Source: Candidatus Eremiobacterota bacterium
Lineage (GTDB): Bacteria; Vulcanimicrobiota; CADAWZ01; Ess09-12
Assembly (NCBI GenBank): GCA_031082125.1
Contig: JAVHLM010000032.1
Span: forward strand, 40,338-82,516
DNA: 42,179 nucleotides
Reading direction: 5' to 3'
A model generated the notes under the pieces. That model had not been told where the DNA came from. It ran no database searches and saw nothing but the letters and a program-made list of their open reading frames with translations. Made by a program: the position numbers and the translations under genes. Every line of letters starts with the position of its first letter. Within the stretch, counting starts at the first letter, position 1. Below are positions 16,589-32,454 of the stretch, piece after piece.

Positions 16589-16993
16589 ATGGCAAAGGTT
16601 TTAAAGATCACCGATATATACAAGTGCATAGGGTGCTTCTGCTGTATGGAAGCCTGTGCGAGGCAGTGGTATAAAAGCCTCTCCCTCCACAGGTCGGCCA
16701 TCCAGATAAAGACGGCAGGGGGCATCAAGAACCAGATGTTCGCTGTCATCTGCCAGGGGTGCAGCGATCCTCCCTGCGCCCTCTCGTGCCCCACGGGAGC
16801 CCTCGTGCCCCGCAAAGGGGGCGGTGTCATATACATGAAAAAGAAATGCACCGGATGCAGGCGCTGCGAAGCATCATGCCCCGTTCACGCCATCGGCTTC
16901 GACGAGTCGCTGAACGAGATTGTCGTATGCCGTCACTGCGGCTACTGTGTGCAGTTCTGCCCTCACAACGTCATTGCCATGGGGGAGGTATAG
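16589..16993 (+). CDS. Four-cluster [4Fe-4S] ferredoxin subunit, partner of AOR-family enzyme
   Basis: The 134-residue protein holds sixteen Cys ligands in four sets: 13/16/19/23, 55/58/63/67, 87/90/93/97 and 114/117/120/124. This is the arrangement of polyferredoxin electron-transfer subunits such as DmsB/HybA types and E. coli YdhY. No signal peptide or Tat motif is present, so it acts in the cytosol. It lies three bases before the AOR-family gene, as YdhY accompanies the AOR-like YdhV. It is therefore the probable immediate electron carrier of that enzyme. The ribosome site ACAGGAGAG precedes the ATG. A gap of 137 bases separates it from the methyltransferase gene and could hold a promoter, though I see no convincing one. 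Confidence 0.92.
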   Translation: MAKVLKITDIYKCIGCFCCMEACARQWYKSLSLHRSAIQIKTAGGIKNQMFAVICQGCSDPPCALSCPTGALVPRKGGGVIYMKKKCTGCRRCEASCPVHAIGFDESLNEIVVCRHCGYCVQFCPHNVIAMGEV

Positions 16994-16996
16994 CTT

Positions 16997-18736
16997 ATGT
17001 TCAATGAGAAGACCCTGAGCATTCTCCAGATAGATCTTGAGAAAAAGCGCTTCTCAATCGCTATGAGAGAGGACCTCTATGACGACTATCTTGGCGGCAC
17101 AGGCCTTGCCACCAAGCTCCTGGAAGAGAACGTGGCGGCCTCGGCAGATCCTCTTGACCCGGCACAGCCCGTCATTTTCGCCATAGGCCCCCTCACGTTC
17201 ATGTTCCCCATGGTCACCAAGACCGTGGCGATGTTCAAATCGCCCCTTACGGGCGAGCTTGGCGAGACCCACGCGGGCCTCCGCATGGCAATGACCATGA
17301 GAATGGCCGGTTATGACGCCATAGTGATCAGGGGCAAAAGCCCGCGTCCCGTGTATCTCTCCATCACGGGACGCGAGGTGCAGTTCAGGGAGGCTGAGCC
17401 CTTCTGGGGCATGGACGTTGACACCGCAGGCCTCTACATGCGGCAGGCAGTATCGGGAGGCGGCAAGAGGAGCATCATCAGGATAGGCCCGGCGGGAGAG
17501 AAGCTTGTGGGCTATTCCTGCGTGACAGTCGATGACTTCAGGCATTTCGGGAGGCTAGGCCTCGGAAGCCTCATGGGAAGCAAGCTCCTCAAGGGCTTCG
17601 TCATATCAGCCGACAAGAGCTACGGCTTTCCCGACATAAACGGGTATAAAGCCCTTTACGAAGAGATATACAAGAAGTGCACCGAGACGCAGATGCTCCA
17701 GAAATACCATGATCTGGGCACTCCGGAGAATGTGATCCCCCTCAACGTCATAGGGGCCCTCCCCACGAGGAACCTCCTCTCCGGCCATTTTGACGACGCA
17801 AAATCCATCAGCGGGGAATCCTTTGCCGAGGAGGTCCTCGCGAAAAAGCTCTCATGCTCGGGGTGCCCCGTGGGCTGCATCCATATCGCCTCCCTCAGGC
17901 ACATGTTCTCCTCCGAGCATGAATTCGAGACCGTCTCGGTCTGCTATGATTTCGAGCTGATCTTCGCCCTTGGGTCGCTCCTGGGCATAGCAGACAAAAA
18001 AGGCATCCTGCTCCTCATCTTCGGTATCGAGCAGCTGGGCCTCGACGCCATGATGACGGGCGTCGTGCTGGCCTGGCTTACCGAGGGCATACAGACCGGT
18101 GTGCTCAAGGAGGAGGATGTGATGGCCCGCCCCTCCTTCGGCGATACCGATGAGTATATCAAAATCCTGAGTATGCTCGTCAGCCAGCCGAATGATTTCT
18201 ATAAATCCCTGGCGGCGAATCCGGAGAAGTGCGCAGACCATTACGGAGGCCGGGAGTTCCTTCTCACCCTCAAGGGGAACGGCATGGCAGGCTATCATAC
18301 CGGTTATGCCCATCTCTTCGGGCAGACCACGGGGAGCCGCCACTCCCACCTTGACAATGCCGGCTATTCAATCGACCAGCAGAAGCAGACTTACTCCCCC
18401 GCCGAGATGGTGGAGAAAATCATCAAGGAGGAAAAGGAGCGCTGCCTCCTCACGAGCCTTGTCATCTGCCTGTTCGGCCGGAAGTTCTACGATCTCGATC
18501 TCGTGGTAAGGGCTTTCAAGTCAATCGGCATTGAGAAGACAAGGGAAGAGCTCCTCGCCATAGGCGAAAGGATCTACCACAAGAGAATAGAGCTTAAAAA
18601 GTCCTTCGGCTATGACTTCCACAATCTGAACATCCCCGAGCGCTTCTTCCAGACCGAGAGCGCCAGGGGAAAACTGGAGAAGAAGGTAATCGAGGAGATG
18701 AATGGAATTTATCTCCAGAAAATAGGAATCTCGTGA
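16997..18736 (+). CDS. Aldehyde:ferredoxin oxidoreductase family tungsten/molybdenum enzyme
   Basis: The 579-residue protein fits the AOR family in length and motifs: an N-terminal domain with YLGGTGLATKLL (31-42), FAIGPLTF, GELGETHAGL, and the pterin-binding GRLGLGSLMGSKLLKG (185-200). The [4Fe-4S] ligands are Cys287, Cys290, Cys294 (CSGCPVGC) and Cys491 in SLVICLFG, with GLDAMMTG matching the family G(L/I)D segment. AORs oxidise aldehydes to acids, or reduce acids, with a bis-pterin W cofactor and ferredoxin. Substrate class cannot be fixed from motifs. The closest arrangement I know is YdhV beside YdhY. GGGGAGG precedes the ATG. The stop overlaps the extended hemL frame, and the nuo operon follows, which suggests its electrons may enter that complex. 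Confidence 0.93.
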   Translation: MFNEKTLSILQIDLEKKRFSIAMREDLYDDYLGGTGLATKLLEENVAASADPLDPAQPVIFAIGPLTFMFPMVTKTVAMFKSPLTGELGETHAGLRMAMTMRMAGYDAIVIRGKSPRPVYLSITGREVQFREAEPFWGMDVDTAGLYMRQAVSGGGKRSIIRIGPAGEKLVGYSCVTVDDFRHFGRLGLGSLMGSKLLKGFVISADKSYGFPDINGYKALYEEIYKKCTETQMLQKYHDLGTPENVIPLNVIGALPTRNLLSGHFDDAKSISGESFAEEVLAKKLSCSGCPVGCIHIASLRHMFSSEHEFETVSVCYDFELIFALGSLLGIADKKGILLLIFGIEQLGLDAMMTGVVLAWLTEGIQTGVLKEEDVMARPSFGDTDEYIKILSMLVSQPNDFYKSLAANPEKCADHYGGREFLLTLKGNGMAGYHTGYAHLFGQTTGSRHSHLDNAGYSIDQQKQTYSPAEMVEKIIKEEKERCLLTSLVICLFGRKFYDLDLVVRAFKSIGIEKTREELLAIGERIYHKRIELKKSFGYDFHNLNIPERFFQTESARGKLEKKVIEEMNGIYLQKIGIS

Positions 18737-18795
18737 TCTCCCGGCCCGCCGGGGATCACCCTGCAATGAATGCCGCCTGGCAGGAGAAGCACCAT

Positions 18796-20103
18796 ATGCC
18801 GAAAACCTTGACGCGATCCTCGGCTCTTTATCAAGAGGCCCTCACCTGTTTTCCCGCAGGGGTGAACAGCCCTGTGCGCGCTTTCAAAGCCGTGGGAGGG
18901 CAGCCCCTCTTCATAAGGGAAGGCAAAGGCTCAAAAGTTACCGATGCCGACGGCAATGAGTACATTGATTACCTCGGCTCGTGGGGTCCCCTTATCCTGG
19001 GCCATGCACACCCGGAGGTAGTCAGGAAGACCGCGGCAGCAATTGAAAAAGGCACAAGCTTCGGCACCCCCCACGAGGGGGAAGTCGCCCTTGCACGCCT
19101 CGTCAAGGAGTGCTTCCCTTCAATGGAGCTCCTCAGGTTCGTCAACTCAGGCACCGAGGCCACGATGAGCGCCATACGCCTCGCGAGAGGCTTTACCGGC
19201 AGGGATATAGTCCTGAAATTTGAAGGCTGCTACCACGGGCACAGCGACAGCCTCCTCGCGAAGGCCGGCTCGGGCGCGATGACATTCGGCGTGCCGGACA
19301 GCGCCGGTGTACCGGGCGACATTACCAGGAAAACCCTCACGGTCCCTTACAACGATACCGCGGCATTTACCGCGATCATGGAAAAGGAAGGCCCCCGCAT
19401 CGCCGCAGTGATAGTGGAGCCTGTGGCGGGAAACATGGGGCTCGTGCTCCCCCGTGAGGGCTTCCTTGAGGCCCTCAGGGCATCTACGGCCGAACATGGC
19501 GCGGTGCTTATCTTTGACGAGGTCATCACGGGCTTCAGAGTGGCAAAAGGAGGAGCCCAGGAGCGCTGCGGCATCAGGCCTGACCTCACGACGCTGGGGA
19601 AAGTGCTTGGTGGGGGATTCCCCCTGGCGGCATACGGCGGGAAAAAGGAGATAATGGAGCAGGTCGCTCCCCTGGGAAGCGTGTACCAGGCAGGCACCCT
19701 CTCGGGAAACCCCGTGGCAGTGGCGGCGGGAAGGGCCACGCTTGAGGCGATCCTCTCGGAGCAGAATTTTTATGATACCCTCGCCGCGAAGACAGATCTG
19801 CTGGTCCGCACAGTGGGTGAAATTTTTACCAGGAGGGGAATACCCCACGTAATCAACCATTTCGCCTCAATGTTCACCATTTTTTTCACCGGGGGAGAAG
19901 TTTTTGATTACCAGAGCGCAAAGAAGGCACAGGCCGACCGTTATGGGCCTTTCTTCCACCATATGCTTGAGAGGGGAATCTACTTTCCCCCCTCGCAGTT
20001 TGAGACGGCTTTTGTCTCTTCGGCACATACGGAAAAGGATATTGAAGCTACTGCGGCTGCCGCCGAAAAAACCTTCACTCTACAGGAAATGACATGGAAG
20101 TAA
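18796..20103 (+). CDS. hemL: Glutamate-1-semialdehyde 2,1-aminomutase
   Basis: From ATG 18796 the 435-residue protein has standard HemL length and signatures: PAGVNSPVRAF (20-30), the NSGTEA phosphate-binding segment (117-122), GCYHGHSD (144-151), FDEVITGFR (240-248) and PLP Lys269 in TLGKVLGGGFP. It converts glutamate-1-semialdehyde to 5-aminolevulinate in the C5 heme pathway. The frame is open back to GTG 18733, but AGGAG ten bases before 18796 and family alignment support the shorter form. The end overlaps the polyprenyl synthase gene by ten bases, so the two are coupled. Location inside a respiratory operon suggests heme supply is matched to electron-transport synthesis. hemA is not in the window. 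Confidence 0.95.
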   Translation: MPKTLTRSSALYQEALTCFPAGVNSPVRAFKAVGGQPLFIREGKGSKVTDADGNEYIDYLGSWGPLILGHAHPEVVRKTAAAIEKGTSFGTPHEGEVALARLVKECFPSMELLRFVNSGTEATMSAIRLARGFTGRDIVLKFEGCYHGHSDSLLAKAGSGAMTFGVPDSAGVPGDITRKTLTVPYNDTAAFTAIMEKEGPRIAAVIVEPVAGNMGLVLPREGFLEALRASTAEHGAVLIFDEVITGFRVAKGGAQERCGIRPDLTTLGKVLGGGFPLAAYGGKKEIMEQVAPLGSVYQAGTLSGNPVAVAAGRATLEAILSEQNFYDTLAAKTDLLVRTVGEIFTRRGIPHVINHFASMFTIFFTGGEVFDYQSAKKAQADRYGPFFHHMLERGIYFPPSQFETAFVSSAHTEKDIEATAAAAEKTFTLQEMTWK

Positions 20104-21071
20104 TGGGCAAGGAGTCCCTGATCATTGAAAATGAGATGAAAGAGGTCATGGAGTTCATCAACTCCGTGTTCACCTATGATCTTGCCATCCTCAAGGAGAT
20201 TGTGAACCAGGTCCTCACCCGCGGGGGAAAGCGCATCAGGCCCACGCTGGTGCTCCTTACGGCAGATATCTTCGACGGCATCACCAGGGATGCCACCCTG
20301 GCCGCCTCGATAATAGAGGTGGTCCATGCCGCGTCGCTTCTCCATGACGACGTCGTCGATGGCTCACCACAGCGCAGAGGTGCGGAGTCCCTCAACGCCA
20401 GGTTCAACAACAAGGTATCCGTGCTTCTCGGCGACTTCCTTTTCACCAAGGCCTATGCACGCCTCAGCCGGATCCATGATCAGAAGGTGACGGCAGCCCT
20501 CGCCGACGCCGCTGCCCACATGTCATTGGGCCAGCTCGTCGAGGCGTACTTCCAGGGTGACGGCGAGATCACCAGGGAGGAATACTTCTCCGTCATAGGA
20601 GGGAAAACGGCATCGCTCTTTTCAACATGCTGCAGGATAGGCGCGCTCATTGGCCATGCCCCTGAGGAGCAGGTGGAACTTATGGCCCGCTTCGGAAAAA
20701 ACTACGGCCTGGCCTTCCAGATCACCGACGACTGCCTTGATTACTGGGGTGATGAGAAGCTTCTTGGAAAACCCGTGGGCTCCGATCTCATTGAGAAAAA
20801 ATACACCTTGCCGGTAATTCATCTTCTTGAGGAAGGCGGGAAGGAAGATCAGCACCTTGTGAGAGAAATATTCTCCATGGCTTCTCCCGGGAGGGAGCAT
20901 ATAAAGCAGATACTTTCCCTCATGGAGAAGCACCGCACCCGTGAGTTCGCTTACGGAATCGCCCGCGAGTTCGGTGAGCGGGCCCTGGCGGAGCTCTCGG
21001 GCGTGGCGCCCTGCAGAGCACGGGTTGCGCTGGAAAAAATGGTGCGCGACATCATTACAAGAGACAGGTAG
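20094..21071 (+). CDS. ispB: Polyprenyl diphosphate synthase (quinone side chain, IspB/HepT type)
   Basis: The 325-residue trans-isoprenyl diphosphate synthase has both aspartate-rich motifs, LLHDDVVDG (Asp85, Asp86, Asp89) and ITDDCLDYWGD (Asp212, Asp213, Asp216), plus GGKRIRP (44-50). The residues four and five before the first motif are small (Ala, Ser), the pattern of medium/long-chain enzymes rather than farnesyl synthase. A C35-C50 product for menaquinone or ubiquinone is therefore likely. The symbol is by family. HepT/IspB cannot be separated by eye. It starts inside the hemL end and is followed eight bases later by nuoA, so quinone tail synthesis is co-expressed with complex I. Confidence 0.9.
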   Translation: MEVMGKESLIIENEMKEVMEFINSVFTYDLAILKEIVNQVLTRGGKRIRPTLVLLTADIFDGITRDATLAASIIEVVHAASLLHDDVVDGSPQRRGAESLNARFNNKVSVLLGDFLFTKAYARLSRIHDQKVTAALADAAAHMSLGQLVEAYFQGDGEITREEYFSVIGGKTASLFSTCCRIGALIGHAPEEQVELMARFGKNYGLAFQITDDCLDYWGDEKLLGKPVGSDLIEKKYTLPVIHLLEEGGKEDQHLVREIFSMASPGREHIKQILSLMEKHRTREFAYGIAREFGERALAELSGVAPCRARVALEKMVRDIITRDR

Positions 21072-21079
21072 GAGTGAAT

Positions 21080-21445
21080 ATGCTCACAGATTACATCTAT
21101 GTGCTCATGTTCATCCTGGGGGGCCTCTTCATAGTGACGGCAGGCCTTACCCTTTCCAGGCTATTCCGCCCTACTCACCCCACTCCCGACAAGATTTCCA
21201 CGTACGAGTGCGGCGAGCGCCCCATCGGTGAGGCCCGTGGCCAATACGACGTAAAATATTACCTTTATGCCCTCCTTTTCGTGATTTTTGACATCGAGGC
21301 AGTATTCCTGATCCCCTGGGCCGTCTCTTTCAAGTCCATGGGGTCCCTCATGCTTTTCAGCTTCATCGAGATGGTCATATTCATTGCCATCCTCCTTGTG
21401 GCCTTACTCTATGCCTGGAAGAAAGGTATCCTCACATGGGAGTAG
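21080..21445 (+). CDS. nuoA: NADH-quinone oxidoreductase subunit A
   Basis: The 121-residue protein has three membrane helices (about 7-28, 63-83 and 91-114). The conserved loop [17 protein letters not shown] carries the Cys that marks the quinone-site loop in NuoA/ND3. [12 protein letters not shown] marks helix 2. ATG 21080 is preferred over GTG 21074 because TAGGAG sits five bases before it. It is the first nuo gene, starting eight bases after the polyprenyl synthase stop. The stop overlaps nuoB by ten bases. Confidence 0.95.
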
Positions 21446-21963
21446 AAGACGAAAAAAAGGTTTTTATCGAGCGGCTGCCCGGCGTGAGCCTGGCCCTCAC
21501 GGGAATTGACTACGTGCTGGACAACGCCAGGGCATCTTCGCTCTGGTACCTCCTGTACGGCCTTGCCTGCTGCGCCATTGAGCTCATGGCAACGGGAGCA
21601 GCCCGGTACGACTTTGACCGCCTGGGCATGATGTTCAGGGCCACGCCCCGCCAGGTGGATCTCATGATCGTGGCGGGGACCGTCACACTCAAGATGGCAC
21701 CGAGAGTGAAGCTTATTTACGAGCAGATGGCCGAGCCGCGCTACGTCATTGCCATGGGGGGATGCGCCACAGGCGGGGGCCCCTTCTACTATGATTCCTA
21801 CTCGGTCCTCAAGGGCATTGACAAGGTAATTCCCGTGGATGTCTATATCCCCGGATGCCCGCCGCGGCCTGAAGCGCTCCAGGAAGGATGCCTGAAGCTC
21901 GCCGATAAGGTCCGCCACGAGAGAAGGTTTACCAGCGCCATCAGGGCTTGGAGGAAGAGTTGA
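21436..21963 (+). CDS. nuoB: NADH-quinone oxidoreductase subunit B (N2 cluster)
   Basis: The 175-residue peripheral-arm subunit holds the N2 [4Fe-4S] cluster next to quinone. The tandem CysCys of LACCAIELM, Cys in [12 protein letters not shown] and Cys in [13 protein letters not shown] are all present, as is the RYDFDRLGM segment. Length and motifs are standard. The start lies within the nuoA end. The stop TGA shares bases with the nuoC TTG start (TTGA), so translation is coupled. Confidence 0.96.
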
Positions 21964-22421
21964 AAACCGAGAATATCGTCAGGATTCTGAGGGAAAAGCT
22001 CCCTGAAATCGCCATCAGGCAGGAGGAGGACGGCTCGATAAGGATTGAGCCCTCTTCCATAAGGGACCTTGCCCTGCAGCTCCGAAACACGAGGGAGCTC
22101 TCCTTCGATTTTCTCGTGTGCTCCTTTGCCATTGACTACCTGGAGAAGATGGAGATCGTCTATATATTCCACAGCTATCTCCACAACCACCAGGTCAAAA
22201 TAAGAGCCTGGATTGACAGGGGAAATGCCGTAATAGCCACCATAGAGGACCTTTATCCCACGGCGAACTGGCACGAGCGGGAGATGTATGATCTCTTCGG
22301 TGTGACCTTCAAAGGCCATCCCGACCTGAGAAGGCTCCTCCTCCCTGACGAATGGGAAGGAGCCCCCATGAGGAAAGACTATACCCATGAGAATCTTGTA
22401 AGAAGGCCTGAGAACAAGTAA
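21960..22421 (+). CDS. nuoC: NADH-quinone oxidoreductase subunit C (30 kDa)
   Basis: The 30-kDa-type subunit is identified by [19 protein letters not shown] and [11 protein letters not shown] followed by MRKDY, the family signature. It stabilises the N2/quinone module together with NuoD. Two in-frame TTG codons exist. The one at 21960 has GGAGG five bases before it and overlaps the nuoB stop as TTGA, so it is chosen over 21948. It is separate from nuoD, unlike the fused nuoCD of E. coli. The stop shares a base with the nuoD ATG. Confidence 0.94.
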
Positions 22422-23518
22422 TGCACAAGACAGAGGAATTCTACCTGAACATGGGGCCCCAGCACCCGAGCACCCACGGGGTGCTCAAGCTCGTCCTCAC
22501 TATTGACGGCGAGCTCGTCAAGGAGGCGCAGCCTGAGATAGGCTTCCTCCACAGGGCCCTGGAGAAAATTGCCGAGAACAGGACTTACCACCAGTATGTC
22601 CCTTACACGGACCGCCTTGATTACGTCACGTCCATGACGAGCAATTTTGTCTATGTGCTGGCCGTGGAAAAGCTGGCAGGGATAAAGGTCCCTCCCAGGG
22701 CTGAGCATATCAGGATCATCATGGCGGAGCTCAACAGGATTGCGAGCCACCTCCTCTGGCTCGGGGCCATCGGGCTCGAGGCGGGGGCCACCACCCCATT
22801 CCTTTACACCTTCAGGGAGAGGGAGTTAATACTGGACCTCTTCGAGATGACCTGCGGCGCCAGGCTCACTTACAATTATATGCGCATCGGCGGTGTCTCC
22901 AGGGACATCACACCGACATTTATTGAAAAAACAAAGGAGTTCCTTCAGATCTTCAGGCCCTGCATCAAGGAATACGAGGACCTGCTGATCAAGAACGTAA
23001 TTTTCCATCACAGGGTGAAGGGAATCGGCGTGCTCACCGCAGGCAAGGCAGTGGCACTGGGCGTCACGGGGCCCAACATCAGGGCTGCCGGCATGAAATG
23101 GGATCTCAGGAAAGACATCCCTTATTCCATTTACAGGGACTTCGAGTTCGACATCCCCACGCGCACCGATGGTGACACCCTTGACAGGATCCTGGTGCGC
23201 GTCGAGGAGATGAGGCAGAGCTGCCGCATCATCGAGCAGGCCATCGAGAAGCTTCCGAAAGGCGATGTCCAGACCTTTGTGCCCCTCCACCTCGAGCCTC
23301 CCGCGGGAGAAGTCTTCATGAGGACCGAGTCACCAAGGGGCGAGCTCTCCTGCTTTATTTTGAGCGACGGATCCGAGAAGCCTTACAGGCTGAAGTTCAG
23401 GTCCCCCTCGTTCTCGCACGTGAGCGCCCTTCCCACGGTGCTCAGGGGTCTTTACATGGCAGACGTGGTGATCGTGGGAGGAAGCTTTGACATAGTCCTT
23501 CCAGAAACAGACCGTTAA
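22421..23518 (+). CDS. nuoD: NADH-quinone oxidoreductase subunit D (49 kDa)
   Basis: The 365-residue 49-kDa subunit forms the quinone-reduction cavity with NuoB. Signatures include the N-terminal MGPQHPSTHGVLKL, with the quinone-site His, EIGFLHRALEKIAE, YTDRLDYV, ELNRIASHLLW, RIGGVSRDI, and the C-terminal VGGSFDIVLPETDR. It lacks the four Ni-Fe Cys residues of related hydrogenases, which argues for a quinone-reducing complex rather than a group 4 hydrogenase. It is somewhat shorter than the 390-415 residues of many homologues. Confidence 0.95.
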   Translation: MHKTEEFYLNMGPQHPSTHGVLKLVLTIDGELVKEAQPEIGFLHRALEKIAENRTYHQYVPYTDRLDYVTSMTSNFVYVLAVEKLAGIKVPPRAEHIRIIMAELNRIASHLLWLGAIGLEAGATTPFLYTFRERELILDLFEMTCGARLTYNYMRIGGVSRDITPTFIEKTKEFLQIFRPCIKEYEDLLIKNVIFHHRVKGIGVLTAGKAVALGVTGPNIRAAGMKWDLRKDIPYSIYRDFEFDIPTRTDGDTLDRILVRVEEMRQSCRIIEQAIEKLPKGDVQTFVPLHLEPPAGEVFMRTESPRGELSCFILSDGSEKPYRLKFRSPSFSHVSALPTVLRGLYMADVVIVGGSFDIVLPETDR

Positions 23519-23529
23519 GAGAGGCAAGG

Positions 23530-24723
23530 ATGATCAGGCAAGCCAGTGACATACTCGAGAGGATAACCCGGGGGATTATCCAGGTCATCTGGCCGCAGCA
23601 TGCGGCGCAGATGACCATCCCCGCCTGGGCGCACTGGGTATATGCAGTGATCTGCATGGCGGTGATGATCGGGTTCATCAGCGCCATGGCTTTTTTCCTC
23701 ATCTGGCTAGAGAGAAAGATAGCGGGAAGGGTTCAGCGCCGTATGGGGCCCATGGTAACGGGGATCCCGAGGAAATGGAGCGGAGTCATCACCTATCTCG
23801 TAAAGCACCCCGGCCTGGGCACCTGGCTTGGCGGGTGGCTCCAGACGCCCATGGACGCCGTGAAGCTTTTCCAGAAAGAGGATCTCATACCGGAAAAGGC
23901 CGACAGGGTTACCTTTATCGCAGCGCCTTTCCTTGTCATGACGGCCTGCTTCATGACCTTCGTGATCATTCCCTTCGGGCCGGGCCTCATCGTGAGGGAC
24001 CTCAACATAGGTATCCTCTATTTCATGGCCATCAGCTCGCTGGCAGTCGTAGCCATCGTGATGGGCGGGTGGGGCTCCAACAACAAGTACTCCCTGCTGG
24101 GAGGGCTCCGCTCGGCGGCACAGCTCATCAGCTACGAAGTGCCCATGGTCTTCTCGATCCTCTCAGCAGTGCTGCTGGCAGGCTCCATAAGAATGGGTGA
24201 CATCGTGGCGGCGCAGCAGAAAGCATTTTTCACGGGATGGTTCATATGCCCGCTCTTCATCGGCTTTGTCGTGTATATCATTGCGGCAATTGCCGAGACA
24301 AACCGCCCTCCCTTCGATATCCCCGAGGCCGAGTCCGAGCTTGTGTCAGGCTTCAATATAGAGTACAGCGGCATGCGCTTTGCCATGTTCTACCTGGCGG
24401 AGTTCACCAACATGTTTCTCGTTTCGGCCATTGCCACCACTCTTTTCCTGGGAGGATGGACCCTCCCCTTCGGCCTTGGAGCCGCCCTGAGAGACTACCT
24501 GGTTTCGCTCCAGGTGCCCCACATCGGTATCCTCGCCGTCATCGGCGGGCTCATTGTCTTTTTTGTGAAAACGGCGGCGCTTGTCTTCTTCATAATGTGG
24601 ACGCGCTGGACTTTCCCGAGGCTCCGGGCCGACCAGCTCATGGCATTCTGCTGGAAGCTCCTTGTGCCTCTCTCGCTTCTGAATCTCTTGATTGCAAGCC
24701 TCTGGGCAATGAAATTTATCTGA
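23530..24723 (+). CDS. nuoH: NADH-quinone oxidoreductase subunit H
   Basis: The 397-residue membrane subunit has about eight or nine helices and forms the entrance of the quinone channel. Hallmarks: WLERKIAGRVQRRMGPM in the first cytosolic loop, LQTPMDAVKLFQKED, and the acidic quinone-proximal loop AETNRPPFDIPEAESELVSG, both essentially canonical. It directly follows nuoD. In typical operons nuoE, nuoF and nuoG would lie between, and none of the three is present here. The next gene begins ten bases later. Confidence 0.95.
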   Translation: MIRQASDILERITRGIIQVIWPQHAAQMTIPAWAHWVYAVICMAVMIGFISAMAFFLIWLERKIAGRVQRRMGPMVTGIPRKWSGVITYLVKHPGLGTWLGGWLQTPMDAVKLFQKEDLIPEKADRVTFIAAPFLVMTACFMTFVIIPFGPGLIVRDLNIGILYFMAISSLAVVAIVMGGWGSNNKYSLLGGLRSAAQLISYEVPMVFSILSAVLLAGSIRMGDIVAAQQKAFFTGWFICPLFIGFVVYIIAAIAETNRPPFDIPEAESELVSGFNIEYSGMRFAMFYLAEFTNMFLVSAIATTLFLGGWTLPFGLGAALRDYLVSLQVPHIGILAVIGGLIVFFVKTAALVFFIMWTRWTFPRLRADQLMAFCWKLLVPLSLLNLLIASLWAMKFI

Positions 24724-24733
24724 ACGGTGGACT

Positions 24734-26164
24734 ATGAGTGATATTTTGAAAGAATTCGTAGATGGAGTAGGCAGCCTGCTGACGGGCTACAGGATCACCC
24801 TCACGGAGTTCCTGAAGGATCCCGTGACGCTCCAGTACCCATGGGACAAGTGGCCGATCCCCACGAGGTACAGGGGGAAGCTCACCGTCAAGGGCTTCTT
24901 TGACGAGGAGACCATCGAGCGCAAGAGCACCTGTTACCCCGAAAAGGATCTGGCGCCCTGCATGAAGACCTGCCCCGCCTTTACCGATGTAAGGGGCTAC
25001 ATCACGGCTATCGCAGAGAAAAACTACCTCGAGGGCATCAGGATCCTGAAGAATACCTATCCCTTTGCAGGGAGCCTCGGAAGAGTCTGCCCTGCTCCAT
25101 GCGAGGGCCGCTGCACAAGGGGCACGGCCCAGAGGGATCCCCTCACCATAAGGTACCTTAAGAGGTTCCTTGCCGATTACGAGAGAGGCCTTCCTGCCGA
25201 GTCGAGAGTGCCCTACGAGAAAAAGGATGGTCCCAAGCCTCACAAGGTGGCCGTTGTGGGCGCGGGCCCCGCGGGGCTCACATGTGCCTGGTACCTTGCT
25301 CTCAAGGGCTTTCCCGTGACGGTCTTCGAAAAGCTCCCTGTCGCCGGGGGGTACCTTGCCACGGGAATACCGAAATACCGCCTTCCAAGGGAGATCCTGA
25401 AGGAGGAGATCAAGAGCATCACCGATCTTGGCGTTGAGCTGAAGCTCAATACCGCCGTCGGGAAAGATATATCCTATGACGAGCTCTTTTCATCCGGATA
25501 CAGCGCCGTGTTTATAGGGGCCGGCGCAACAAAGCCCTCGAGGATGGGCTGCGATGGGGAGGAGAGCCCATGTGTTCAGACCGGTGAAGATTTTCTTTAC
25601 CGTGTGAACCTCAATCTCCCTTACAAGCTGGGAAAGAGAGTCGTCGTCATAGGAGGCGGCAACACGGCCATTGACTGCGCCCGCGTGGCCAAGAGGCTGG
25701 GAAGCGACGTGACGATCCTTTACCGTAGAACCATGGCCGAGATGCCTGCCGAAGAGCACGAGATCAATGACTGCATTAACGAAGAGGTGAATCTTGAGAT
25801 TCTCACGGCGCCTGTAAAGGTCTGCGGCTGCGATGTGCTCGCCGGCATCGAGTGCGTGAGATGCACCCTTGGCGAGCCCGATGCCTCGGGAAGAAGAAAG
25901 CCCATGCCCCTCGAGTGCTCGGAGTTCATAGTGGAGTGCGACACCATCATCACTGCCGTGAGCAGGACGCCAGAGCTCCCGGGGCTTCCCGAGAGCGTGA
26001 AGCTCACGAAGTGGGGCACCATCCAGACTGACCCCATGACGGGCGCCACCTCAATGAAAGGGGTATACGCTGGCGGTGATGCCGCCCTCGGTGCCGCCAC
26101 CGTGATCGAAGCCATCGCCACGGCGAAAAAAGCGGCCATGGGTATTGAGAAACTCCTATCCTGA
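24734..26164 (+). CDS. NuoI N-terminal segment fused to a GltD/SfrB-type FAD-NAD(P) oxidoreductase
   Basis: The 476-residue protein is a chimera. Residues 10-52 look like the NuoI N-terminus: a helix, then LKDPVTLQYPWDKW and PTRYRGKLTV, matching the YPEE-x-PPRYRG element of NuoI. Residues 65-160 form the Fer4_20 domain of GltD-type proteins, with Cys67, 76, 80, 119, 123 and 127 available for two [4Fe-4S] clusters. FAD binds at VAVVGAGPAGLTC (172-184). NAD(P) binds at VVVIGGGNTAIDCARVAKRLG (303-323). The FAD-closing motif is YAGGDAALGAATVIEAI. The Cys ligands of NuoI are not here but in the next gene. The position between nuoH and the ferredoxin subunit suggests it replaces NuoEFG as the electron-input module and docks through its NuoI-like segment. 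NADH versus NADPH use cannot be read by eye. Confidence 0.92.
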   Translation: MSDILKEFVDGVGSLLTGYRITLTEFLKDPVTLQYPWDKWPIPTRYRGKLTVKGFFDEETIERKSTCYPEKDLAPCMKTCPAFTDVRGYITAIAEKNYLEGIRILKNTYPFAGSLGRVCPAPCEGRCTRGTAQRDPLTIRYLKRFLADYERGLPAESRVPYEKKDGPKPHKVAVVGAGPAGLTCAWYLALKGFPVTVFEKLPVAGGYLATGIPKYRLPREILKEEIKSITDLGVELKLNTAVGKDISYDELFSSGYSAVFIGAGATKPSRMGCDGEESPCVQTGEDFLYRVNLNLPYKLGKRVVVIGGGNTAIDCARVAKRLGSDVTILYRRTMAEMPAEEHEINDCINEEVNLEILTAPVKVCGCDVLAGIECVRCTLGEPDASGRRKPMPLECSEFIVECDTIITAVSRTPELPGLPESVKLTKWGTIQTDPMTGATSMKGVYAGGDAALGAATVIEAIATAKKAAMGIEKLLS

Positions 26165-26180
26165 CGGTGAGGAACAGAAA

Positions 26181-26600
26181 ATGGAAGGAAAAGTAGAAAC
26201 CATAAGAGCGTCTATGCCAAAGCTCCCGGCGCGGGAGCGGGCGGCATCATTTGATGAGGTGGAGAAAGGCCTCCCCGAGGATATTGCCGTCTTGGAGGCA
26301 ATCCGCTGCCTGGGATGCAACGTGGAGCTCTGCGTAGGCTGCAGGATATGCGCCGAGGTGTGCCCTGACGCCTGTATTCACATTAATACGGCCGAGACGC
26401 TCTCGGGGAAGCAGTATGTGACCTCCTATGAGGTGGACAGCGCCACATGCATGTTCTGCGGCCTCTGCACAGAGGCTTGCCCTACAAAGACGCTGGTCCA
26501 CACGGCGGCCTATGAGCTTTCCGTATATGACAAGCAGGAGATGGTCTATCGGGAATCCGTCCCCGCAGCAAAGAAGGCAGGAGGAGAGAAGGAAAAGTGA
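26181..26600 (+). CDS. nuoI: NuoI ferredoxin domain (N6a/N6b) with GltD-type N-terminal linker
   Basis: From ATG 26181, with GAGG eight bases before it, this is a 139-residue protein. Residues 8-46 (RASMPKLPARERAASFDEVE, then EAIRCLGC) match the linker that ends GltD/SfrB-type flavoproteins just before their ferredoxin domain. Residues 51-125 are the NuoI two-cluster ferredoxin: CVGCRICAEVCPDAC (Cys51, 54, 57, 61) and CMFCGLCTEACP (Cys90, 93, 96, 100), then the NuoI-typical AYELSVYDKQEMVY. The usual NuoI N-terminal segment is missing and lies on the previous gene. It passes electrons to N2 in NuoB. Extra Cys43 and Cys46 might bind a further metal site with partners. Confidence 0.92.
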   Translation: MEGKVETIRASMPKLPARERAASFDEVEKGLPEDIAVLEAIRCLGCNVELCVGCRICAEVCPDACIHINTAETLSGKQYVTSYEVDSATCMFCGLCTEACPTKTLVHTAAYELSVYDKQEMVYRESVPAAKKAGGEKEK

Positions 26601-27124
26601 TGCAAGCGATTAACCCGCCGCTTTTCTATGTCCTGGCAGCCCTGGTGATATGCTCAGCTCTTGTGGTGGTAAGAGTCCGGAATATCTTCCATGGCGCTCT
26701 CGCCCTGGGTCTCACGTTCCTTGGCGTGGCAGGTCTTTATATCACGCTCCATGCGGAATTCCTCGCAGGAATGCAGGTTCTCATTTATGTGGGAGCTGTT
26801 GTTGTCCTTATACTGTTCGGTATCATGCTCACCCAGCAGCTTCACAGGAAGGACATGCCGTCCTTTAACGCCTTGCAGCCCCTGGCGCTTGCAGCGACAC
26901 TGTTGACTGCAGTGGTGATGGGCTATTTTATCACCAGCCAGAAATGGTCTTCAGGTGAGCCTCTCATCGCGGCCTCTCCGGAATCCCATGTCCGCGAGCT
27001 GGGCATTTGCCTGATGAGAGATTACCTCGTTCCCTTCGAGGTGCTCTCAGTGCTCCTTCTGGCCGCCCTGCTGGGTGCCCTTGTCATAGCGCGAAAGGAG
27101 GGGAAGCCCGGTGATCGGTCTTAA
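26600..27124 (+). CDS. nuoJ: NADH-quinone oxidoreductase subunit J
   Basis: The 174-residue protein has five membrane helices. The pi-bulge helix GMQVLIYVGAVVVLILFGIML is canonical for NuoJ/ND6, which couples quinone reduction to proton transfer. The ATG at 26600 shares its A with the preceding TGA, so the two genes are translationally coupled. The GTG at 26597 is less likely. The end overlaps nuoK by 14 bases. Confidence 0.94.
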   Translation: MQAINPPLFYVLAALVICSALVVVRVRNIFHGALALGLTFLGVAGLYITLHAEFLAGMQVLIYVGAVVVLILFGIMLTQQLHRKDMPSFNALQPLALAATLLTAVVMGYFITSQKWSSGEPLIAASPESHVRELGICLMRDYLVPFEVLSVLLLAALLGALVIARKEGKPGDRS

Positions 27125-27413
27125 CCACTACCTTATCCTGAGCCTGGCAGTTTTCTCCATCGGAATTTTCGGCGTCCTCACGAGGAGGTCGGCCATAGGG
27201 GTCCTGCTGTCCCTCGAGCTCATGTTCAACGCGGTATGTCTGAACTTTGCCGCCTTCTCATATTTTCTCCATACCATCTCGGGGCAGATCATGGTCATTT
27301 TCATCATAGCCATAGCCGCTGCCGAGTCCTGCGTGGGAATCGCGCTTGTGCTCAGCATCTACCGGCATTTCAAGGATATCTCGGTCGATAAGGTGAGTGA
27401 GCTAAAATGGTAG
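27111..27413 (+). CDS. nuoK: NADH-quinone oxidoreductase subunit K
   Basis: The 100-residue, three-helix subunit has the two family glutamates in membrane helices, in LLSLELMFNAVCLNF and AIAAAESCVGIALVL, which belong to the proton path. GTG start at 27111 with GGAGGGG upstream inside nuoJ. Standard length. Confidence 0.95.
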   Translation: MIGLNHYLILSLAVFSIGIFGVLTRRSAIGVLLSLELMFNAVCLNFAAFSYFLHTISGQIMVIFIIAIAAAESCVGIALVLSIYRHFKDISVDKVSELKW

Positions 27414-27426
27414 AAGGGAGATTCCG

Positions 27427-29397
27427 GTGGAAACCTTGAACGGATCACATCTTCTGATGGACGGGTTCCTGGTGGGCTTTTGCCCCTTTTTCGCCTTCGT
27501 CCTCATCTCCATATTTTCCCTGAGAAACAGGGGTGTCTCGGCAGCCATCTCGATCATGGCCATCGCGCTCTCCGCTGTTCTTTCGGGCATAATACTCTTC
27601 CACCGTCTTAAAGATCCCTTCTCTGCACCCTTCAACTACGAGATCCCCTGGATCACCATCAATGACTTCACGGTGCCTATCGGCCTCCTCATCAACAACC
27701 TCTCGGCGTCGATGATGTTCATCGTAAGCTTTGTCGCCATGCTCATCCAGATTTACTCTGTAAGCTACATGGAGAACGAGGAGGAAACGGTCTTTTCCAA
27801 GTACTTTGCTTTCATGTCCCTCTTTGCGGCCTCGATGCTGGGGCTCGTCATGTCGCCCAATTTTTTCCAGATCTATATCTTCTGGGAGCTTGTGGGCCTC
27901 TCGTCGTATCTCCTGATAGGATTCTGGTACAGCAAGAAGTCGGCCGCCGACGCGGCGAAAAAGGCCTTTGTCGTCACAAGGTTCGGCGACATGGGATTCC
28001 TTCTGGGAATAATACTGCTCTACCTCATCACGGGGAGCTTCTCATTTGACGCCATTCCCGGGCTCCTGGACAAGTATCTCGGCAACCAGGCCCTCACGGG
28101 CCATATGGTGGCAGGCATCGTGCTGTCAAAGACCGCCGTGGTGAACTGGGTGATGTTCCTGGTCTTTTGCGGCGCCATAGGGAAAAGTGCCATGTTTCCT
28201 CTCCACGTGTGGCTTCCCGACGCAATGGAAGGCCCCACCCCCGTGAGCGCCCTCATCCATGCTGCCACGATGGTGGCAGCAGGCGTGTTCCTTGTCGCTC
28301 AGACGCTCCCCATATTCCATAAGGCTCCCGACACCATGGTGGCGATTGCCTATATAGGAGGCTTTACCGCATTCATTGCGGCTACCATGGGCATTGTGCA
28401 GGACGACATAAAAAGGGTTCTCGCCTATTCGACGATCAGCCAGCTCGGCATCATGATCATGGCCCTGGGCCTTGGCGGCTACGTGGCCGGTGTGTTCCAT
28501 CTCTTTACCCATGCCTTTTTCAAGGCCCTCCTGTTCCTCTGCGCCGGCTCGGTAATCCATGCGATCCACTCAAACAACATATGGGAGATGGGCCGCCTCG
28601 GGAAGTACATGCCCACGACAGCGGCAACCTTCCTGATAGGTGCCCTTGCCCTTGCGGGCGTGCCGCCCCTTGCGGGCTTCTGGAGCAAGGACGAGATAAT
28701 GGGTGTGCTGTGGCAGTCAAAACACTACGTGATGATAGTCCTTGGGTTCGGAGTGGCATTCTGCACGGCCTTCTACATGTTCCGGGTCTATTATGTCGCC
28801 TTCTGCGGCAGGGAGCGCTCGGGCCACCCGCCTCACGAGTCCTCGCCGTTCATGACGATCCCCCTGGTGATCCTCGCTTTCTTTGCCATCTTCCTCGGGT
28901 TCATCGGCGTCCCGGGCCACAGCGCCTTTGCTCCCTTCATCGAGGGAAAGGCGCTTGAAGGCCATGAGGCCTTTTTCCTGGGACCCTTGCTCCTCTCGAT
29001 GCTGATGGCGGGCCTGGGAATCCTCACCGCATGGCTCCTTTACGGCAAGGAGCCCGAGAAGAGCGAGGAGATGCTCAAGACCCGGTACAGGGCCATTTAC
29101 ACTCTTCTTGTCAACAAGTATTACATGGACGATTTCTGGTCTTTCATAATGCAGCGCCTTGTCTTCGGAGCGGCGAAAGTGGCATCGTTCATCGATGAGA
29201 AGATTGTCGACAACGTGGTGAACCTTGCCGGCTGGGCTACCGACGAGAGCGGCAAGATGCTCAGGAAGGAAGAGTCCGGCCTTGTGCAGCAGTATGCCGC
29301 GGTCATTGTAATTTCACTGGCGATCATTCTGATGGGTGCCGGTTTCATAGAAGCCATATCGTCGGGAAAAGTATTTCTGCAGATACCCTTCAGATAA
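27427..29397 (+). CDS. nuoL: NADH-quinone oxidoreductase subunit L
   Basis: The 656-residue antiporter-like proton-pumping subunit has about sixteen helices. Landmarks: FFQIYIFWELVGLSSYLLIG with the key Glu, GKSAMFPLHVWLPDAMEGPT, SALIHAATMVAAGVFL, DDIKRVLAYSTISQLG and the long C-terminal lateral helix region (from about 560). GTG start at 27427 after GGGAG. Length is normal, which indicates a full third pump module. Confidence 0.95.
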   Translation: METLNGSHLLMDGFLVGFCPFFAFVLISIFSLRNRGVSAAISIMAIALSAVLSGIILFHRLKDPFSAPFNYEIPWITINDFTVPIGLLINNLSASMMFIVSFVAMLIQIYSVSYMENEEETVFSKYFAFMSLFAASMLGLVMSPNFFQIYIFWELVGLSSYLLIGFWYSKKSAADAAKKAFVVTRFGDMGFLLGIILLYLITGSFSFDAIPGLLDKYLGNQALTGHMVAGIVLSKTAVVNWVMFLVFCGAIGKSAMFPLHVWLPDAMEGPTPVSALIHAATMVAAGVFLVAQTLPIFHKAPDTMVAIAYIGGFTAFIAATMGIVQDDIKRVLAYSTISQLGIMIMALGLGGYVAGVFHLFTHAFFKALLFLCAGSVIHAIHSNNIWEMGRLGKYMPTTAATFLIGALALAGVPPLAGFWSKDEIMGVLWQSKHYVMIVLGFGVAFCTAFYMFRVYYVAFCGRERSGHPPHESSPFMTIPLVILAFFAIFLGFIGVPGHSAFAPFIEGKALEGHEAFFLGPLLLSMLMAGLGILTAWLLYGKEPEKSEEMLKTRYRAIYTLLVNKYYMDDFWSFIMQRLVFGAAKVASFIDEKIVDNVVNLAGWATDESGKMLRKEESGLVQQYAAVIVISLAIILMGAGFIEAISSGKVFLQIPFR

Positions 29398-29413
29398 CAA
29401 AGGAGCACGAGCC

Positions 29414-30931
29414 ATGGAGCCCATAATCCTGTCGATAATCACCTTTTCTCCCCTCCTCGGGGCGCTCCTGATCCTTTTCATCCCCCGGGAGGAAGAGTGG
29501 GAGATCAAGCTGCTTGCCACTTTCTCCACCTTCTGCTCCTTTATCCTTTCCTTATACCTTTTCGTTACCTTTGACAGGTCCCTGGGGAGCGAGACCCTGC
29601 AGTTCGTGGAGAGAATCCCATGGATACCGAAGCTGGGCATTTCCTACATAATGGGCGTTGACGGTTTCAACGCACCCATGGTGCTCCTTTCCGGAATACT
29701 GGCCTTTGCCTGCATCCTGGCATCATTCCGGATCACCCACAGGACAAAAGAGTATTTCATTCTCACCCTCGTCTGCCTCACGGGCGTCATAGGTGTCTTC
29801 AGCACGCAGGATCTCTTTTTCTTTGTGGTATTTTACGAGATGGCCAGTATCCCGATGTATTTTCTCATCGGCATCTGGGGATCAGATAAATCAGGGAACG
29901 GAAAGACGGTGAAAAAGGAATACGCCGCTCTCAAGCTCACCCTCTACCTCCAGCTGGGCGGCGGGCTTGTGCTCCTTGGCATCCTGGGCGTCTATTTCCT
30001 CACGGTGCTCCCCCAGGGCATGCAGAGGACCTTCTTCCTCCATGACCTCATCCAGTACGGGAACCTTGCAAAGCATTACCAGATGATCCTCTTCCCTCTC
30101 ATCTTCCTGGGCTTTGCCATAGAGGCCGGCTTCTGGCCCCTCCACACGTGGCTCCCCGACGGCCATTCGGCAGCGCCGACAGCCCTCTCGATGATCCTTG
30201 CCGGCGTCCTCCTCAAGATGGGCGGGTACGGCATGCTCAAGATCGCCATAGGGCTCGCACCGCAGGGCGCGCTTGTATGGCTGGACATCTTTATAGCCTT
30301 CGGGGTAATCAACATCATTTATGGCGCTCTCTGTGCCATGAACCAGACTGATATCAAATATATGATTGCCTATTCCAGTGTAAGCCACATGGGTTTCGTC
30401 ACACTGGGGATCGCGGCGAGAAATACAGCAGGCTTTAACGGAGCCATCTTCCAGATGTTCTCCCATGGCATCATCACGGCCCTCCTCTTCGCCATCGCCG
30501 GCCTGCTCTACGAGAAGGCCCATACCCGCTCCATGCCGAAGCTTGGAGGTCTCGCGGTGAAAATGCCATACCTTGCCACATTCTTTATCCTGGGAGGGCT
30601 TGCCTCGCTGGGACTCCCCGGTATGAGCGGCTTCGTTGCCGAGTTCCTGGTGTTCATCGCCGTGTTCAAGGCCCACTATATCATTGCCGGCGCCCTGGCC
30701 ATCACGGGCATCGTGCTCACCGCCATCTACATCCTGAGAGCAGTGCAGCGCATATTTTTCGGAGCCTTGCCCGACGGGTATCTCGATATCAAGGACCTGA
30801 CAGGCATCGAGGGCTCCCACCTGGTGCTGCTGTCCCTGGTGATGATTGTCTTCGGGGTGTACCCGCGGCTCCTGATAGACGTGATGAGCCCGAGCACGGA
30901 ATATCTAAGACGGCTCCTTATGGGTCAATAA
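29414..30931 (+). CDS. nuoM: NADH-quinone oxidoreductase subunit M
   Basis: The 505-residue antiporter-like subunit has about fourteen helices. Landmarks: DLFFFVVFYEMASIPMYFLIG with the conserved Glu, IEAGFWPLHTWLPDGHSAAP, LAGVLLKMGGYGML, DIKYMIAYSSVSHMGF and the C-terminal IYILRAVQRIFFG. AAAGGAG precedes the ATG. It follows nuoL by 16 bases. Confidence 0.95.
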   Translation: MEPIILSIITFSPLLGALLILFIPREEEWEIKLLATFSTFCSFILSLYLFVTFDRSLGSETLQFVERIPWIPKLGISYIMGVDGFNAPMVLLSGILAFACILASFRITHRTKEYFILTLVCLTGVIGVFSTQDLFFFVVFYEMASIPMYFLIGIWGSDKSGNGKTVKKEYAALKLTLYLQLGGGLVLLGILGVYFLTVLPQGMQRTFFLHDLIQYGNLAKHYQMILFPLIFLGFAIEAGFWPLHTWLPDGHSAAPTALSMILAGVLLKMGGYGMLKIAIGLAPQGALVWLDIFIAFGVINIIYGALCAMNQTDIKYMIAYSSVSHMGFVTLGIAARNTAGFNGAIFQMFSHGIITALLFAIAGLLYEKAHTRSMPKLGGLAVKMPYLATFFILGGLASLGLPGMSGFVAEFLVFIAVFKAHYIIAGALAITGIVLTAIYILRAVQRIFFGALPDGYLDIKDLTGIEGSHLVLLSLVMIVFGVYPRLLIDVMSPSTEYLRRLLMGQ

Positions 30932-30945
30932 GAGGGAGGCTCAAG

Positions 30946-32454
30946 GTGAATCTCGAGTTGCTTTCGATGGAATTGTTCCTCTGCGCCTGGGGGTTGCTCC
31001 TCATTATTCTGAACCTGGCAGGCCTGAAAAACAACAGGGTGCTTGGGTACATCACGGCAGCGGGCGTCATTATCGCAAGCGCCATAGGCATTTTCTTCCT
31101 TTACGGCAGAAACGAGCCCCTCGCGCGCACGGGGAAAGAGCTCTTCAAAGGCTTCCTGTACTTTACCGATCCTCTCTCGGTGTACTTCAAGATGCTGATC
31201 CTGCTCCTCGTCCTTATGGCCGTGCTGCTCTCAATGGACTATTTCCACCGCCACCGCGGGGCTCACGCCGAGTTCTACCCCATCCTCCTCTTCTGCAGCT
31301 CGGGGCTTTTGATGATGACTTCGGCAGGCGATTTCCTGCTGCTCTTCGTTGCCATGGAACTGGTGAGCATACCGCTTTACGTGCTTGCCGCCTTCGAGAG
31401 GAAAGAGAGAAGGTCCGCGGAGGCCGGCTTCAAATACTTCATGCTCGGCGCATTCTCTTCAGCCCTTTTCCTTTTCGGCGTCAGCATTCTGTACGGCATG
31501 ACAAACTCGCTGATATTCGTCAACAAGAGCTTCGCCACGCTTCCCACGATTACAGGCACCATGAACAACGAGAGCTTTTTTACCGCCGGCCCGGCCATCA
31601 AGGCAGCCCTCTCTCTTGCCATCGTGATGATCGTCGCAGGTCTTGGCTTCAAGATCGCCGCTTCCCCCTTCCACATGTGGGCGCCTGATGTGTATGAAGG
31701 CTCGCCGATCCCCGTGACAGCCTTTATCTCCGTGGCTCCCAAGGTTGCGGGGATCGCCGTATTGCTGAGAGTATTCCCCGGCGGCATCGATGCCTGCTCG
31801 TCAAACTGGATGCCACTCTTTGCCCTTATCGGCATGCTCTCCATTGTAATTGGAAACCTCACTGCCCTGAGGCAGGATAATATAAAAAGGCTCCTTGCCT
31901 ATTCAGGCATCTCCCAGGTGGGCTTCATACTCCTTGGCTTCGCAGGGATAAGCGCCAACAGGGATGCCGCCATATCCTACGTGCTCTTCTACACTACCGT
32001 GTATGCCCTCACCAACATGGGTGTCTTTGCCGTCGCACAGCTTGCCAGCGAGCATTACGGCACAGAAAAATTCTCAGAGTACAAAGGTCTGGCTGTCATA
32101 TCGCCAAGCCTCTCTCTCATGGCGGCCCTGGCTCTTCTCTCCCTGGCAGGGATTCCGCCCCTTTCAGGCTTCATGGCAAAGTTCCTTATCTTCGCCAGTA
32201 TTTTCAACGCCTTCGACCACAGGCTTATGCTCTTTGTCGTGCTGGCTATCATATTCAGCGTCATCTCCCTGTTTTACTATCTCAGGATCCTCAAATACAT
32301 GTACTACCGTGAGATAGAAAATAGAGCGCCTCTTGTCATCCCTGGCGTGTGCATGGTAGTCCTCTCCATATCCACCCTCGCCACGGTCTTCCTGGGCCTT
32401 CTGCCCTCGTTCTTCACGCTCACTGGCTATGTGGCGGAGTATCTCAACAAATAG
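30946..32454 (+). CDS. nuoN: NADH-quinone oxidoreductase subunit N
   Basis: The 502-residue antiporter-like subunit has about fourteen helices. Landmarks: FLLLFVAMELVSIPLYVLAAF, EAGFKYFMLGAFSSALFLFG, KIAASPFHMWAPDVYEGSPIP and DNIKRLLAYSGISQVGF. GTG start at 30946 with GGGAGG six bases before it. Last structural gene of the complex. The three pump subunits L, M and N are all full-length, so the membrane arm is that of an ordinary complex I. Confidence 0.95.
   Translation: MNLELLSMELFLCAWGLLLIILNLAGLKNNRVLGYITAAGVIIASAIGIFFLYGRNEPLARTGKELFKGFLYFTDPLSVYFKMLILLLVLMAVLLSMDYFHRHRGAHAEFYPILLFCSSGLLMMTSAGDFLLLFVAMELVSIPLYVLAAFERKERRSAEAGFKYFMLGAFSSALFLFGVSILYGMTNSLIFVNKSFATLPTITGTMNNESFFTAGPAIKAALSLAIVMIVAGLGFKIAASPFHMWAPDVYEGSPIPVTAFISVAPKVAGIAVLLRVFPGGIDACSSNWMPLFALIGMLSIVIGNLTALRQDNIKRLLAYSGISQVGFILLGFAGISANRDAAISYVLFYTTVYALTNMGVFAVAQLASEHYGTEKFSEYKGLAVISPSLSLMAALALLSLAGIPPLSGFMAKFLIFASIFNAFDHRLMLFVVLAIIFSVISLFYYLRILKYMYYREIENRAPLVIPGVCMVVLSISTLATVFLGLLPSFFTLTGYVAEYLNK

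Follow-up and report, generated by a model that had tools for sequence, protein, structure and literature searches.

A GltD/NfnB-type dehydrogenase module inserted into NuoI as the probable electron input of a complex I without NuoEFG

We analysed a 42,179-nucleotide stretch of DNA from a Candidatus Eremiobacterota bacterium (the window). Two adjacent genes of its complex I operon probably encode, judging from sequence comparison, the NuoI subunit of the complex, opened by the insertion of a GltD/NfnB-type NADPH dehydrogenase module that replaces NuoEFG. On balance, we also favour the view that this complex I forms a class of its own, natively taking in NADPH electrons through a circularly permuted GltD module in NuoI. 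In its split form, two separately encoded polypeptides would each contribute two ligands to a [4Fe-4S] cluster, which would wire the flavoprotein to the NuoI clusters.

The operon runs on the forward strand from 21074 to 32454 in the order nuoA-B-C-D-H, gene 1, gene 2, nuoJ-K-L-M-N, as read from open reading frames, Pfam and NCBIfam matches and gene spacing; NuoL, NuoM and NuoN were assigned from their order and length and from homology within the phylum. It follows tightly on hemL (18733-20103) and a polyprenyl synthetase gene (PPS, 20094-21071), a hemL-PPS-nuo order also present in relatives, and from nuoA to nuoN all gaps or overlaps are of 16 bases or fewer. Homologues of NuoA, B, C, D, H, J, K, L, M and N lie together in this single operon, as in an 11-subunit complex I, and the gene pair fills the nuoI position between nuoH and nuoJ. 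No nuoE, nuoF or nuoG was found within the window's nuo operon. By motif inspection, NuoD retains the quinone-site residues within HPSTHG (H19) and DYV (Y68), and NuoB retains the N2 cysteines C45, C46, C110 and C141. Directly upstream of hemL and on the same strand (16589-18736) there are a 4Fe-4S ferredoxin-like protein and an aldehyde:ferredoxin oxidoreductase (AFOR). On the reverse strand, the window further encodes an anaerobic ribonucleoside-triphosphate reductase NrdD (10460-12466, above cut-off), a 404-aa protein of pentapeptide-like repeats (37317-38531) and a CcsB-type cytochrome c biogenesis protein (38541-39371). The last of these suggests that the organism, which has no haem-copper oxidase match, makes c-type cytochromes.

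Gene 1 (24734-26164, forward strand) encodes 476 aa and gene 2 (26181-26600, forward strand) 139 aa. They are separated by 16 bases and read in different frames, and gene 2 starts with ATG preceded by GAGGA. The first 52 residues of gene 1 (24734-24889) form a NuoI N-terminal element, as indicated by TIGR01971, hhalign and phmmer. Positions 1-37 of the NuoI model TIGR01971 match gene 1 at 24791-24895 (24.1 bits, E 1e-4), and residues 12-57 match mitochondrial 23-kDa/NDUFS8 chains in phmmer (E about 2e-5). A profile of 18 chimera N-termini, aligned with canonical NuoI proteins from the same phylum by hhalign profile-profile comparison, gave a probability of 98.6 and E 1.3e-15. P30, T32, Y35-P36 and R47-G48 are invariant within the element. 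Gene 1 continues with a truncated Fer4_20 domain (residues 53-151; 24890-25186), found by Pfam and with its ligands mapped to NfnB and StnC, and a FAD domain with an embedded NAD(P)H domain (Pyr_redox_2; residues 171-464; 25244-26125), after which it stops. The closest structures to this middle part are StnC and NfnA/NfnB. Gene 2 consists of a linker equivalent to the NfnB N-terminal segment (about residues 5-42) and containing RCLGC with C43 and C46 (26220-26318), the NuoI 2x[4Fe-4S] ferredoxin domain (residues 48-125; 26322-26555; TIGR01971 E 6e-23) and the NuoI tail. TIGR01971 positions 41-118 match gene 2 with 80 bits. Thus, instead of an intact one-polypeptide NuoI, the model is divided by an insert of about 430 residues and a gene break. 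The first-pass annotation had described a GltD-like module between the two halves of NuoI, in two genes of an operon without nuoE, nuoF and nuoG, and its domain assignments, gene order, spacing and frames all hold; its own doubt, that the start of gene 1 might not resemble NuoI, is answered by the significant similarity.

The arrangement of the GltD module itself is unusual. In NfnB, a helical segment with RCLQC (C39, C42) comes first and is followed by C47...C51, C90, C96 and C100, and then by the FAD and NAD(P) domains. In the chimera, the equivalent of NfnB residues 46-454 comes first, and the equivalent of residues 5-49 follows, directly before the NuoI ferredoxin. From this order and residue mapping, what had been noted as a GltD-type linker is, by sequence, the first piece that the GltD module otherwise lacks, displaced from its N-terminus by circular permutation. 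The cluster ligands given for NfnB (PMC7596348) have their equivalents accordingly. NfnB C39, C42, C47 and C100 at the distal cluster correspond to C43 and C46 of gene 2 and C76 and C127 of gene 1, and NfnB C51, C90, C96 and E117 at the proximal cluster correspond to gene 1 C80, C119, C123 and K143. All these positions are invariant in every chimera member, and so are the first-motif cysteines of the NuoI ferredoxin. The pair has the GltD/NfnB/StnC module, with Fer4_20 ligands and FAD and NAD(P) domains, two of its ligands coming from a C-terminal linker. Since two of the four ligands predicted for the distal cluster come from the linker, this cluster should be held in the split form by both polypeptides. 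Moreover, C46 of gene 2 is only five residues away from C51, the first NuoI cluster ligand, and so the GltD and NuoI redox chains should lie close to each other.

The same architecture, for which the first-pass annotation had proposed a genome search, was found in 21 of the 149 genomes of the phylum (in two of the 21 as fragments only), belonging to at least ten families (f1, f3, f4, f6, f7, f8, f11, f12, f13 and f15). The chimeras form one clade among GltD-like proteins (support 99/97). The two-gene form occurs in f1, the family of the window, and in f4, f6, f7 and f8; f3, f11, f12, f13 and f15 have a single gene of about 670-710 aa, and these fused forms are one clade inside the chimera clade (support 100/99). 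An assembly frameshift was considered as the origin of the gene split and ruled out by its recurrence in f4, f6, f7 and f8. Nor is the split due to chance, because the same pair occupies the same slot between nuoH and nuoJ in two further families, f6 (L048) and f7 (L049), and the fused form exists in five more. In f8, about 0.7 kb separates one chimera gene from the other in G010 (L054, 10193-13000) and G013 (L019), and an unrelated ORF lies between nuoD and nuoH (L092, L101).

In f3, f11, f12, f13 and f15 the fused gene lies away from the nuo genes. This fact, together with the resemblance of the gene 1 core and of gene 2 to PRK12771/PRK12814 proteins (residues 7-105 of gene 2 match the C-terminal part of PRK12771 as well), would fit a soluble DsrL/SfrB-like NADPH:acceptor enzyme that merely resembles NuoI and shares its transcript with a complex I fed by ferredoxin. 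We consider this highly improbable: the N-terminal element is significantly NuoI, other GltD paralogues were found without it, the slot of the pair in the operon is the NuoI slot and, if the pair is set aside, no NuoI is left for the complex in the window genome (G000), G008 or G009. The reading as a NuoI subunit extends to the fused form, whose assembly into complex I we infer from nuo operons that have no nuoI. In f11 and f13 the hemL-PPS-nuo operon lacks this gene. In three f13 operons (L089, L094 and L097) the nuoH-nuoK interval is only about 560-580 bp, which fits nuoJ alone, and in f11 nuoH overlaps nuoJ. The fused gene is the best TIGR01971 match in the searched genomes of f3, f11 and f13. 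Families f12 and f15 have an additional canonical 14-subunit set with its own NuoI. In f12 genomes this second set includes NuoEFG and provides an internal contrast, and the set in G018 (C35, L091) has the NuoEFG N-module, unlike the window operon. In f5 (G007), where no chimera was found, a plain 200-aa NuoI is encoded beside NuoB. A search of plasmids returned GltD cores only. A scan of contigs from other phyla returned generic GltD fusions, with the NuoI element in none of seven inspected and, by strict motif, in none of 80 among the matches listed; this is only a weak negative, since the motif is over-strict, missing many true chimeras too, and the window's own phylum is absent from the scan.

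The window genome yielded neither a separate full-length NuoI nor a complex I NuoG matching TIGR01973 above cut-off, which removes the other objection raised at first pass, an intact nuoI with nuoEFG elsewhere. The best NuoG-like match is a formate dehydrogenase alpha (TIGR01591) with an in-frame TGA. Four NuoE-type loci are present, three of them in Stn/Nfn-ABC-like or HydABC-like sets. The fourth is a NuoE/NuoF pair on contig C4, near the formate dehydrogenase alpha gene, and NuoEF homologues of the genome were assigned to FDH, Hyd or Stn-like sets. One could imagine that NuoEF encoded elsewhere, such as the C4 pair, still docks as the N-module, with the GltD insert serving as an additional or regulatory entry point. 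This seems to us scarcely credible, given that the C4 pair has the formate dehydrogenase gene with its in-frame TGA as neighbour, that complex I NuoG was not found in the genome, and that the NuoF iron-sulfur domain is missing altogether from three near-complete genomes (G006, G010 and G013, 96-98% complete) in which NuoD and the chimera are retained. For the window genome, the idea that the true N-module is a NuoEFG encoded elsewhere was rejected on the identity of the C4 NuoG-like gene as formate dehydrogenase alpha. A second 49-kDa protein on contig C1, considered as evidence of a second complex I, is part of a group-4-hydrogenase-like cluster (identities of 34% for NuoD, 39% for NuoB and 23% for NuoH).

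The C1 cluster (575000-581000; L059) encodes a membrane complex resembling group 4 hydrogenases, with distant homologues of NuoD, NuoB, NuoH, NuoL and ferredoxin. The formate dehydrogenase alpha-like gene (C4, 57484-59553; L256, L063) has one in-frame TGA after DHCART, likely a selenocysteine site, and a similar in-frame TGA occurs in G005 and G028; the NuoE/NuoF pair is about 3 kb downstream of it, with a lipoprotein-like gene between them on the other strand. On C37 (26000-33000; L061) there are, in a row, a NuoE-like protein, a 1073-aa NuoF+GltD fusion, a NuoG/HoxU N-terminal-like protein and a GltB-like protein, a cluster that appears by sequence to be unusual and bifurcating-enzyme-like. 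On C14 (80000-86000; L060) a NuoF-like protein (596 aa) and a 1223-aa GltD + NuoG-like protein adjoin a NuoE-type match, and this locus looks like Stn/NfnABC. The window operon is not a Stn transhydrogenase, having neither the NuoG-like C-terminal half nor NuoEF-like StnAB.

Information about the electron donor comes from the NAD(P)H domain. The motif Y330-R331-R332 (25721-25729, forward strand), predicted to bind the NADPH phosphate, is invariant in all chimeras. YRR binds the NADP phosphate in NfnB, and DsrL-2, which has YRR, uses NADP(H) and not NAD(H), whereas DsrL-1 without YRR prefers NAD(H) (PMC7596348). This three-residue motif thus predicts NADPH as the donor. The FAD of the GltD module in StnC also takes electrons from NADPH and is reported to be non-bifurcating (PMC10482914). 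K143 of the chimera corresponds to StnC K170, and the lysine is invariant across chimeras; in StnC, the K170A mutation causes a severe loss of activity (PMC10482914). NfnB, with its bifurcating flavin, has a glutamate (E117) where the chimeras and StnC have lysine. It might still be thought that the GltD FAD bifurcates or confurcates, so that NADPH electrons would go in part to the NuoI clusters and in part to a low-potential carrier such as ferredoxin, as the FAD of NfnB is a bifurcating flavin and its arginine is kept (R216, StnC R239). That arginine, which contacts FAD in NfnB, was discarded as a bifurcation marker, though, being non-discriminating: it is present both in the chimera and in StnC, whose FAD is reported as non-bifurcating. 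With the invariant lysine instead of glutamate at the proximal cluster, as in StnC, and an operon containing no second flavoprotein or ferredoxin-docking domain, we regard bifurcation as very unlikely. Among the donors and modes listed at first pass, NADPH is therefore favoured by the invariant YRR and bifurcation disfavoured by the StnC-like lysine ligand and by the fact that no second acceptor module is present; ferredoxin as a direct donor is possible. The more general proposal of a dedicated electron-input module attached through NuoI gains support from the spread over at least ten families and from the fused gene being the best NuoI match where the operon has no nuoI.

Domain order, insertion point, conservation and the conserved ligand set are read directly, and upon them we propose the following course for the electrons. 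NADPH would transfer a hydride to FAD, from which single electrons would pass to the proximal [4Fe-4S] cluster (C80, C119, C123 and K143) and then to the distal one, held by C76 and C127 of gene 1 and C43 and C46 of the gene 2 linker. The distal cluster would reduce the two NuoI clusters, and these N2 in NuoB and finally the quinone at NuoD/H, this flow driving ion pumping by NuoH, J, K, L, M and N. We hypothesize that the NuoI N-terminal element and ferredoxin retain their usual seat on NuoB/C/D/H, by which the inserted dehydrogenase would be anchored. An AlphaFold2 model of a fused relative (L011; 23 sequences) had a mean pLDDT of 79.9 and a pTM of 0.78. It is unreliable at residues 28-45 and 482-508, and the junction between the NuoI N-element and the insert and the linker have pLDDT below 50. 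Its best PDB matches in foldseek were 9bov_A, 8oh5_C, 9n5u_A and NfnB chains including 5jca_L.

Complex I is reversible, and the same chimera might work backwards, quinol and ion-motive force (or equilibration) reducing NADP+ at the GltD FAD, as an energy-driven NADP+ reductase. GltD-type modules of Stn and Nfn do run in both directions (PMC10482914), and the genome also has Stn/Nfn-like and AOR systems. Direction cannot be told from sequence. COX1 is present in some chimera members (f4, f8, f11, f12 and f15) and missing in others, and a chimera common to members with and without it fits better with an entry point than with a reductase. We consider the reverse reading unlikely and retain the chimera as an input of electrons. 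As to the quinone, in the window genome no match to the MqnA/MqnD families was found, and only a MenA-like UbiA, under the menA cut-off, was detected.

Complex I without NuoEFG has been reported in other lineages (PMC6349859). The 11-subunit complexes of Desulfitobacterium, cyanobacteria (NDH-1) and Saganbacteria/Melainabacteria similarly consist of NuoA-D, H and J-N without NuoEFG, with the NuoI clusters as entry to the Q-module, but they have a plain NuoI and ferredoxin or unknown donors, whereas in the chimera a flavoprotein donor is built into NuoI. In the passage of PMC11238625 that cites Moparthi and Hagerhall, the donor of the 11-subunit complex is given as unknown and a search for a common donor is reported to have failed. 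StnC of the Stn transhydrogenase (8oh5) and the A subunits of NfnABC (9bov, 9n5u) share with the chimera a GltD module with FAD, two [4Fe-4S] clusters and a C-terminal RCxxC linker, as well as the feeding of electrons into a complex-I-derived module, and StnC also has the lysine at the proximal cluster. In StnC, however, the module is joined to NuoG-like domains and passes its electrons to NuoEF-like StnAB, while in the chimera it is joined to NuoI, as part of a full membrane complex. DsrL and PRK12771-type proteins have the GltD core, the linker and a C-terminal two-cluster ferredoxin, with YRR as in the NADP-using DsrL-2. DsrL differs in its DsrAB partners and in keeping its N-terminal ferredoxin domain in place; the chimera is instead marked by the N-element of NuoI, a permuted segment and the ferredoxin of NuoI. 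NfnB (NfnL; 4ylf_B, 5jca_L) of the NADH-dependent ferredoxin:NADP oxidoreductase has the same fold, and its C39, C42, C47, C51, C90, C96 and C100 all have equivalents; in contrast, the chimera is circularly permuted, has lysine instead of Glu117 and comes without an NfnA partner. No published description of a NuoI-GltD chimera was found in the open-access literature, which was the scope of our search. The building blocks are known; their combination, the insertion into NuoI, the permutation in such a setting and the two-polypeptide cluster appear to be new.

In summary, within one phylum the donor would be a covalent or operonic part of NuoI. The question of which donor serves a complex I without NuoEFG thus becomes directly testable, as donor, cofactors and stoichiometry could be read from one purified complex. 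Our results suggest that the input of complex I is swappable at the level of NuoI, one step deeper than the known attachments of NuoEFG or ferredoxin (NdhS), and they predict an NADPH-driven entry point to respiration in aerobic and anaerobic lineages alike.
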